From Liolophura sinensis (taxonomy: Eukaryota; Mollusca; Polyplacophora; Chitonida; Chitonidae): 64,000 bases of DNA. The position numbers and the translations under genes were made by a program. The notes beneath the pieces were generated by a model that was not told the origin of the DNA, searched no databases, and worked only from the letters and a program-made list of their open reading frames with translations. Location: positions 81,760,644 to 81,824,643 of the forward strand of contig NC_088295.1 in assembly GCF_032854445.1 (NCBI RefSeq), written 5' to 3'. Shown here piece after piece: positions 57,501 to 64,000 of the stretch. Numbering within the stretch: the first letter of the stretch is position 1; each line of letters starts with the position of its first letter.

Positions 57501-60500
57501 CTTTGCACATAATAATACCATAATCAGTGTATCAATTGATATAAACATGATGGAAAATTTGGAAAGTCAAAATTATTCTTTTGTTTCTATTTATTACATA
57601 TAATGCAACTTGTATCTTTTTTTGTTATTGCTGTCCAAGTTCACCTCACTGTCCCGATTCATCCCAGTTCACCTGGTCATGATTCAACCCAGTTCACCTG
57701 GTCATGATTCAACCCAGTTCACCTGGTCATGATTCAACCCAGTTCACCTGGAATGTCGCCTGTCATGAATGAAAAGTTACATGACTTGTTTTTGACAAGT
57801 TGAAAAGTCATATCATGTAAACCCAGCTAAAAGTGCATAAAATGAAGGATGTTTCTGTAGTCTACATTTAAACCTGTAAATGATTTAAATTTGTTTTCTC
57901 TCAGGGATTAGGTTTCAATTGGTTGTGACTCTCAGCAATGAAATTTCAATTTGTTGTGTCTCTCAGTAATGAATTTTAATTTTTTGTTTCTCTCATTGAT
58001 AAGGTTTGAATTTGTCATGTCCCTTATTGATGAGGTTTCAGTTTACCGTGTCCCTCAGTGATGATCATTCACATTTTAAGTGTCCCTCAGTAATGAAGTT
58101 TCATTTTGTTATGTCCCTCAGTAATGAGGTTTCATTTTGTTGTGCTCTTCAGTGATGAGGTTTGAGGTTTCTTTGTCCCTCAGTAATGAAGTTTCATTTT
58201 GTTATGTCCGTCAGCATTGAGCTTTCAATTTGTTGTGCTCCTCATTGATGAGGTTTGAGGTTTATTTGTCCCTCAGTAATGAGGTTTAATTTTGTTGTGC
58301 AGCACTTCAGGCGGATGCCATGTCCATGATGACAACCTCACAGTTACTGCTCCAACCATCATGTGGGTCAAGGTAGATAACTCCACTATTCACAGACTTC
58401 TGTGGATTTCTTCATCCTCAGACCTACTACCTAAGCGAAACTCAGGGAATGAACTAATAATCTTCAGTGCAGAAAGCATACTAGTACACCTAAAATCTAA
58501 TATGGTGCTTATGAAAGCTAATTAAATATTATCTTAACCTGTGCTGACAAGAAATAAATATACAGGTACATGTTCATGTAAACTATGTTGAAATAAGTTT
58601 ATTAATGTTCCCGAATAAGCCAAGTGTATATTTATATTGATATCAGAAAAGCACAAAGCACAAACAAAACACTGCATTTCTTCTCCAGATTGATATGGCT
58701 CTGAATGATCTGTTTAGGCTTTGGATATTTTACTTGACAACATGAAGACCTCAGGATTTGACTTCTCCAGGGTGGCAGCTTTATCTGGATCAGGACAGGT
58801 ACAGTTCTCAGGACAGTTGCGATTCTCAGGAGAGGTGTGATTCTGAGAACAGTTGTGATTCTTTGGACAAATATATGATGTTTCAGGACAAGTAAAACTA
58901 TCAGAAGAGATATTATTTTCAGGGTAGGTATGTTGTCTCAGGACAGGTATGATTCTCAGGACAAGTATGATTCACAGAACAGGCATGATTTTCGGGATAG
59001 GTATGGTTCTCAGGACAGGTATGATTCTAAGGATAGGTATGATTCTCAGGATAGGTATGACTCTCAGGCTAGGTATGATCTCAGGACAGGTATGATTCTA
59101 AGGATAGGTATGATTCTCAGGACAGGTATGATTCTCAGGACAGGTATGACTCTCAGAACAGGCATGATTTTCAGGATAGGTATGGTTCTCAGGACAGGTA
59201 TGATTCTCAGGCTAGGTATGATCTCAGGACAGGTATGATTCTCAGGACAGGTATTACTCTCAGAACAGGCATGATTTTCAGGATAGGTATGGTTCTCAGG
59301 ACAGGTATGACTCTCAGGCTAGGTATGATCTCAGGACAGGTATGATTCTCAGGACAGGTATGACTCAGAACAGGCATGATTTTCAGGATAGGTATGGTTC
59401 TCAGGACAGGTATGATTCTCAGGACAGGTATGACTCTAAGGATAGGTAAGATCTCAGGACAGGTATGATCTCAGGACAGGTATGACTCTCAGGCTAGGTA
59501 TGATGTGTCATGATAGGTATGATCTCAGGACAGGTATGATCTCAGGACAGGTATGACTCTAAGGATAGGTAAGATCTCAGGACAGGTATGATCTCAGGAC
59601 AGGTATGACTCTCAGGCTAGGTATGATCTCAGGACAGGTATGATCTCAGGACAGGTATGACTCTCAGGATAGGTATGATGTGTCATGATAGGTATGATCT
59701 CAGGACAGGTATGATCTCAGGACAGGTATGACTCTAAGGATAGGTAAGATCTCAGGACAGGTATGATGTGTCATGATAGGTATGATTCTCAGGTCAGGTA
59801 TGATGTGTCATGATAGGTATGATTCTCAGGTCAGGTATAATTCTCAGAAAAATCATAAATCATAAAATCAGATTGAAAAATTGTGAAGTATGACAATAAA
59901 TCCCAAGCACACAGACATACATATCAGATCCTACCTGTAGATTACATGACAGATGTCATGTCTAAAGTTTCTTCTAATTGATTTACAGTTGATTTTCAAT
60001 TTGACAGCTTTGATTGGTTGTTTTAACTTCTTCCATTCTTTTGAGGGTTTTTTTTGTCCAGGCAGGCTTGTAGACAAACATTGTGGTGTTGTATTGGAAT
60101 CTGAAACAAGTTTTCTGCATTAAATTTTTCATGTCTTCACTCTTCTTGTCACTTGCAGCAACATGGCAGTGTGTTTTGGAAAACTGGAGCCTTGGAAATT
60201 CTGTCAAATGTTCAACCCAATAAACAGCTTCATGAGCAACTGAAGGTGGTATTCATGTATTTCTGTATATCTTGTTCTTTGCACAGCACATACATGCCTA
60301 ATTAGAACTACATATATGGAAGTAAAGCAATATGTTTTAATATGTCTGTACAATTAAGTAAACAAATTTTGGTTAATTTAAATAAATGGATGTCAAAACT
60401 TCTCCCACCCATGAAATCCGGATATAATACTGTTAAGTAGAAATTTCACACAGTTTTCAAAAGACTTAAAATTTTGGTTTCTTATGATAGATATATATCT

Positions 60501-63035: not shown

Positions 63036-64000
63036 TTACATATGAGGTCTGGGTACCTGATCAGAGCAGTCCTTACAGGTGAGATATGGGCATCTGGTCA
63101 GAGCTGTGTTTACACGTGATATATGGACTGCTGGTCAGAGCAGTACTTACAGGTGAGATATGGGCACCTGGTTAGAGCAGTGTTTACAGGTGAGATATGG
63201 GCAGCTGGTCAGAGCTGTGTTTACAGGTGAGATATGGGTACTTGGTCAGAGCAGTGCTTACAGGTGAGATATTGGTAACTGGTCAGAGCAGTGCTTACAG
63301 GTCAGGTATGGGCACCTGGTCAGAGCAGTGTTTACAGGTGAGGTATGGGCAGCTGGTCAGAGCAGTGTTTACAGGTGAGGTATGGGCAGCTGGTCAGAGC
63401 AGTGTTTACAGGTGAGATATGGGTACCTGGTCAGAGCAGTGTTTACAGGTGAGGTATGGGCACCTGGTCAGAGCTGTGTTTACAGTTGAGGTATGGGCAC
63501 CTGGTCAGAGCAGTGTTTACAGGTGAGGTATGGGCACCTGGTCAGAGCAGTGTTTACAGGTGAGGTATGGGTACCTGGTCAGAGCAGTGTTTACAGGTGA
63601 GATATGGGCACCTGGTCAGAGCAGTGTTTACAGGTGAGGTATGGGTACCTGGTCAGAGCATTGTTTACAGGTGAGATATTAGTAACTGGTTAGGGCCATG
63701 TTTACAGGTGAGATATGGGCAGCTGGTCAAAGCAGTGTTTACAGGTGAGATATGGGTACCTGGTCAGAACAGTGTTAACAGGTGAGGTATGGGCACGTGG
63801 TTAGAGCAGTGTTTACAAATGAGCTGTGGGCGCCTGGTCAGAGTAGTCTTTACAGGTGAGGTATGGGCATCTGGTTAGAGCAGTGTTTACAGGTGAGGTA
63901 TGGACAGCTGGTTAGAGCAGTGTTTACAGGTGAGGTATGGGCAGCTGGTCAGAGCCGTGTTTACAGGTGAAATATGGGCAGTTTGTGCACTCTGTGAGTT
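63036..64000 (+). repeat. Donor-derived minisatellite in XYLB intron 8, second part, 37-bp unit
   Basis: About 25 copies of TGGGCACCTGGTCAGAGCAG then TGTTTACAGGTGAGGTA up to the window end. Copies keep ACAG|GTGAG(A/G) with few exceptions, a near-consensus 5' splice site. Variation alternates GGGCAGC, GGGCACC and GGGTACC. The array probably continues past 64000. Confidence 0.95.

Follow-up and report, generated by a model that had tools for sequence, protein, structure and literature searches.

Why should several introns of a single gene each open with tandem copies of their own 5' splice junction? The question is raised by the window analyzed here, a 64,000-nucleotide stretch of the Liolophura sinensis genome, in which a sequence-only reading had proposed that introns 4, 6 and 8 of XYLB each begin with a minisatellite made from the end of the preceding exon and the start of the intron. 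The answer that we favor, with a probability of roughly 0.75, is that these arrays are "mirage" minisatellites: tolerated tandem duplications that span a donor and have expanded in the manner of intronic minisatellites.

We placed the XYLB exons by homology, using tblastn with human XYLB and phmmer to PDB 4bc2, and then read the splice sites (Table 1). The joined translation of exons 3 to 8 matches residues 52-236 of human xylulose kinase (PDB 4bc2) with an E value of 1e-84 (phmmer), and tblastn finds the later exons further downstream, to about position 75,000 in the numbering of the window. Exons 4, 6 and 8 are all in phase 0 and all read ...ACAG|GT at the donor.

Table 1. Exons, donor arrays and inserted element at the XYLB locus (window positions)
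Feature	Position	Strand	Description	Evidence
XYLB exon 3	58303..58372	+	donor AAG|GTAGAT, without donor array	tblastn, phmmer to 4bc2
XYLB exon 4	58718..58798	+	end GGACAG|GTACAG within first copy of array 1	tblastn, phmmer
Array 1	58790..59847	+	18-bp unit (9 exon + 9 intron), 59 copies, 51 AG|GT	TRF, unit alignment, junction recurrence
XYLB exon 5	60159..60245	+	donor AAG|GTGGTA, without array	tblastn, junction test
XYLB exon 6	60676..60768	+	end CCACAG|GTATGT within first copy of array 2	tblastn, phmmer
Array 2	60743..61129	+	44-bp unit (26 exon + 18 intron), ~9 copies, 5 AG|GT	TRF, unit alignment
XYLB exon 7	61410..61511	+	donor GAG|GTACGT, without array	tblastn, junction test
XYLB exon 8	61959..62090	+	end TTACAG|GTGAGA within first copy of array 3	tblastn, phmmer
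Array 3, exon-proximal piece	62065..62164	+	37-bp unit (26 exon + 11 intron), 2.7 copies	TRF
TIR element inside array 3	62165..63035	+	871 bp	inverted-repeat detection, genome-wide relatives
Array 3, distal piece	63036..63980	+	37-bp unit of array 3, 25.5 copies	TRF, unit alignment, L016 1-624

When the TRF calls are compared with the exon ends, the arrays are seen to begin 9, 26 and 26 bases inside exons 4, 6 and 8, respectively. For each junction we searched downstream for a 24-mer consisting of 12 exon and 12 intron bases and compared the result with shuffled targets. The junction 24-mers of exons 4, 6 and 8 recur with 19/24, 21/24 and 23/24 positions matched, against a best shuffled score of 16/24, and at the remaining XYLB donors (n = 11) and acceptors (n = 14) junction recurrence is at chance level. 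This alignment of units to junctions bears out the proposal that the three introns, with units of 18, 44 and 37 bp, open with a minisatellite of their own junction. The arrays have independent origins, as had also been proposed, since their units are alike only in the donor motif and each holds its own exon end. In array 1, the first eight units have identities to the consensus of 0.72-0.89 and the interior units mostly of 0.83-1.0, as expected for an old edge and a homogenised interior; in the unit alignments of arrays 2 and 3, a diverged exon-side edge is weak or absent.

The two pieces of array 3 are one array that is interrupted by the TIR element. The TIRs of this element are perfect over 11 bp (62165-62175, CAGACATGATT; 63025-63035, AATCATGTCTG), and the TSD TTACAT flanks it at 62159-62164 and 63036-63041. 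Its relatives number in the dozens and are spread over many scaffolds. Several of them span nearly the whole 871 bp at 89-93% identity, and others are divided into segments 1-494 and 485-871 by extra internal sequence, once of about 4 kb. Judged from these relatives, the element belongs to a longer TIR transposon family and has lost internal sequence by deletion. At least one family member is apparently several kb long.

Nearly every distal donor in the XYLB arrays would lead, on translation, to a frameshift or a stop. If exons 4, 6 and 8 were read through, in-frame stops would be met 39, 150 and 162 nt past their ends, and the number of extra donors that preserve the frame before the stop is one in array 1 and zero in arrays 2 and 3. 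The stops and frameshifts after the distal donors are consistent with splicing of XYLB at the first donor, and support it as a prediction from sequence. A different view of the distal donors is that the ladder they form is functional, whether in U1 snRNP recruitment, in alternative donor choice or in protection from premature polyadenylation. The sequence-only reading had described ladders of tens of donors, and this description, on which a functional role would draw, holds for arrays 1 and 3, with 51 and about 40 AG|GT, but not for array 2, with five. However, the AG|GT columns of the unit alignments are no better conserved than many other columns, the GT positions of array 2 are kept at 0.67/0.78 (one unit in every three or four has lost GT), most distal donors would break the frame, and the unit is different in every gene. 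Given the ordinary conservation of AG|GT and the partial loss of GT from array 2, a maintained donor ladder appears unlikely, and we consider a functional role for it very improbable.

The layout of the arrays also bears on whether the duplications could have created the introns in which they lie. Intron gain through tandem duplication of an AGGT-bearing piece of exon has been put forward for amphioxus globins (PMC3087553). The three XYLB arrays, however, take up no more than the 5' portion of long introns that run on past the array. Since the units include the start of the intron as well as the end of the exon, and the arrays are confined to this 5' part, the intron came first, and there is very little likelihood that these introns arose by such a gain.

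The recurrence of donor arrays is well beyond chance, as had been suspected for XYLB, but it is not limited to that gene. We scanned the L. sinensis assembly (609,464,459 bp in 632 contigs), which was built from HiFi and Omni-C data, comprises 632 scaffolds and was published as Liolophura japonica (PMC11068029), the authors later correcting the species name to L. sinensis (PMC12441733). A haemocyanin gene of eight units and molluscan type fits this origin, and a lancelet (amphioxus) origin of the window was rejected. Counted as matches rather than as distinct arrays, a measure in which long arrays weigh heavily, triplets of CAGGTAAG at a spacing of 10-40 bases occur 846 times genome-wide versus 270 times for the reversed 8-mer, and triplets of CAGGTGAG at 10-40 bp spacing occur 1,455 times versus 185 times. 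The permuted control AGATGCAG yields 111 triplets and its reverse yields 37. The reversed and permuted controls together range from 37 to 270. Single CAGGTAAG sites are only twofold over the reversed control, and many of the matches listed sit in arrays.

From scaffold 1 we took 26 distinct CAGGTAAG arrays as short regions. Inspected by eye, nine of these 26 start where an open frame ends, and that frame is preceded by an acceptor-like site; five of the others extend beyond the stretch taken, and the rest are without a clear exon. Family matches were obtained for five of the nine exons that precede an array, namely GH31 (7e-13, with alpha-glucosidases in the PDB), TSP1 (3.5e-4), PHD (1.5e-3), a choline dehydrogenase-like family (3e-4) and a DeoC-like family (6e-3). 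For the DERA-like and GMC exons the NCBIfam matches are weak and no match was found in the PDB. The first 7 Mb of scaffold 1 are dense in donor-consensus arrays, and about half of the 26 CAGGTAAG arrays lie in its first 6 Mb. Separately, a contig of 108.7 kb (C99) carries seven copies of COX1 about 15.5 kb apart; in it the mitochondrial genome is concatenated head to tail, probably as an assembly product.

We also assembled a sample of exons that were picked without regard to repeats, consisting of the best 30 exon hits to the TCP-1 family, the best 30 to the myosin-head family and 22 further exons in the same sequences, for a total of 82; the loci were oriented and the splice sites were then called. 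This work accordingly covers two gene families plus XYLB, with donors called from homology and consensus rather than from transcripts. A donor was scored as spanned if the array in which it lay had three or more copies and was no shorter than 100 bp. Six of the 82 donors are spanned (7%, CI 3-15%): those of two CCT3 exons (units of 66 and 60/120), one CCT5 exon (unit of 109) and three in myosins (units of 66, 31 and 140). At a seventh donor (L074) the units hold the junction and the array was detected 59 bp downstream. The CCT3 and CCT5 exon ends are real, because protein homology stops at the called donors (at query residue 63 for CCT3), and in both genes the copied exon end repeats downstream. 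The CCT3 array at positions 1646-2106 of the oriented (reverse-complemented) locus L025 has a 66-bp unit that is open in the frame of the exon, and its distal donors would insert 22-residue copies, not stops.

For a statistical comparison we used the starts of arrays instead of counting junctions and intron positions that lie inside arrays, a count made uninformative by the long arrays, which take in many intron positions. Of 27 array starts, 12 are no further than about 100 bp from a donor, whereas 3.05 are expected if starts are placed randomly over the eligible positions (P = 1.4e-5); the excess persists when the CCT3 gene is left out (P = 8e-4). Arrays are common enough in this genome, with 59 TRF rows in the window, that one might suppose dense minisatellites simply to start at exons by chance, or the arrays to be assembly artefacts. 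Yet the P value just given comes from a repeat-blind sample, the units carry the sequence of their own exon, and the assembly derives from HiFi reads (PMC11068029), so that we consider both suppositions very unlikely.

The acceptor side of introns gives a different picture. Array ends near acceptors number 6 versus 3.5 expected in the exon sample (P = 0.13), which is no clear excess, and two arrays in this sample reach across an acceptor, one of them clearly. The clear case, in locus L068 (C2:5377801-5380944), is an acceptor-spanning array of a myosin exon that occupies bases 9-705, ends 9 bp inside the exon and has a 32-bp unit with TTTGTAG|GTTTGAGC. The ratio of donor-spanning to acceptor-spanning arrays, 6 to 2 (or 6 to 1 by junction 24-mer), does not reach significance by itself. 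In the window, a 31-bp array at 57900-58299 stops 3 bp short of the acceptor of XYLB exon 3; we rejected it as an acceptor mirage, its unit being without the acceptor junction and junction recurrence being at chance.

For the origin of the donor arrays as mirages, we infer a mechanism of birth and expansion that involves use of the first donor and neutrality. It would begin with a short tandem duplication over the end of the exon and the start of the intron, including the 5' splice site. The first copy would leave the exon whole and keep a donor of its own, and splicing there would discard the other copies with the intron. The duplication would thus be costless in the mRNA and could grow and diverge as intronic minisatellites generally do. 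A similar duplication within an exon would interfere with the protein, and one that spans an acceptor would risk use of an upstream AG; because of these costs, donor-spanning arrays would be the ones that survive best. Events of this kind have occurred independently many times in this chiton, and at donors their frequency exceeds what the intron background would lead one to expect.

A selective filter that spares donor-spanning duplications probably contributes to the excess in position. Since such a filter alone cannot lift donors above the intron background, the roughly fourfold excess suggests some mutational bias near donors, which the present data do not separate from the filter. The excess in position fits a local mutational bias; slippage or break repair at AG|GT junctions, which the sequence-only reading had named, would be a candidate mechanism for it. 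Base composition may play a part, in that the GC content of the arrays is 0.46-0.47 versus 0.38 for introns and 0.48 on the exon side, and exon-like GC may contribute to array starts on the exon side. We rejected composition as the sole cause because GC just inside introns equals that of deep intron, which leaves the intron-side starts without an account.

A stronger version of the mutational argument makes donors true hotspots of tandem duplication and gives selection a minor role; in genes expressed in the germline, co-transcriptional R-loops, stalled replication or the repair of breaks at CAG|GTRAG could, for example, bring this about. It can draw on the excess of array starts, on donor 8-mer arrays that stand 3-8 times above the reversed controls, on the several donors hit per gene (three in XYLB, two to three in CCT3) and on the failure of composition to explain the intron-side starts. 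However, the breaks or R-loops that it invokes are hypothetical, and a G-rich strand or R-loop signature was rejected, the G-skew of the units being not significant after removal of the donor motif (positive in 7/10). In addition, the clustering by gene is statistically weak, and the exon side is GC-richer, as are arrays in general. We therefore regard hotspots of this kind as possible but doubtful. Equally tentative is the broader idea of splice donors as a birthplace of minisatellites in general, under which germline transcription or splicing would make CAG|GTRAG a hotspot of tandem duplication in some genomes and several percent of introns would open with a copied exon end.

If the rate in the sample, a few percent of donors, holds, this genome would contain very many independent minisatellite births at a defined site. 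Were the arrays so common, three questions could be addressed with them: does mutation concentrate at splice donors, by what means does the spliceosome recognize the true donor when tens of copies follow it, and do the arrays give rise to new exons or introns? The birthplace idea, if true, would point to one way in which introns change in length and new splice sites arise. For gene annotators the arrays call for caution, as predictors may choose the wrong copy.

The sequence-only reading knew of no described class of such arrays, a claim that does not stand, given that mirages are known from amphioxus. Boundary-spanning tandem repeats were described in Adh3 (Canestro et al. 2002, cited in PMC3087553) and given the name mirages. 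Further examples are the globins BflGb6 and BflGb9 (PMC3087553) and, among lancelet genes, troponin C and PGBD5 (PMC3902484). Amphioxus mirage units range from 10 to about 160 bp, with splicing apparently undisturbed, and the loci vary in length, at Adh3 somatically too (PMC3087553). The amphioxus mirages and the chiton arrays share boundary-spanning units, many with AG/GT signals, and affect several genes. They differ in that mirage reports, in the literature that we searched, concern lancelets only, single genes and both 5' and 3' boundaries, whereas the chiton is a mollusc with recurrence across the genome, a donor-side excess and up to 59 copies. A molluscan report of such arrays was not found in our literature search, although this does not prove that none exists. 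The Rogers model, as discussed in PMC3087553, has an AGGT-containing exon segment duplicated in tandem to give intron gain, and resembles our case in the tandem duplication at AGGT adjoining coding sequence. In that model, however, duplication makes the intron, whereas in the chiton a pre-existing intron is lengthened, and the XYLB introns do not themselves consist of duplicated exon segment, the unit holding pre-existing intron sequence and the intron running on past the array. Ordinary intronic minisatellites (VNTRs) resemble the chiton arrays in the size and divergence of their units and, as far as array 1 shows it, in having a homogenised interior next to a degenerate edge. In contrast to them, the chiton units include the end of a coding exon and the start of the array is fixed at the donor. 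The chiton arrays show the central testable features of mirages; the class itself is already described, and what is new is the phylum, the donor-side excess and the evidence for recurrence on a genome scale.
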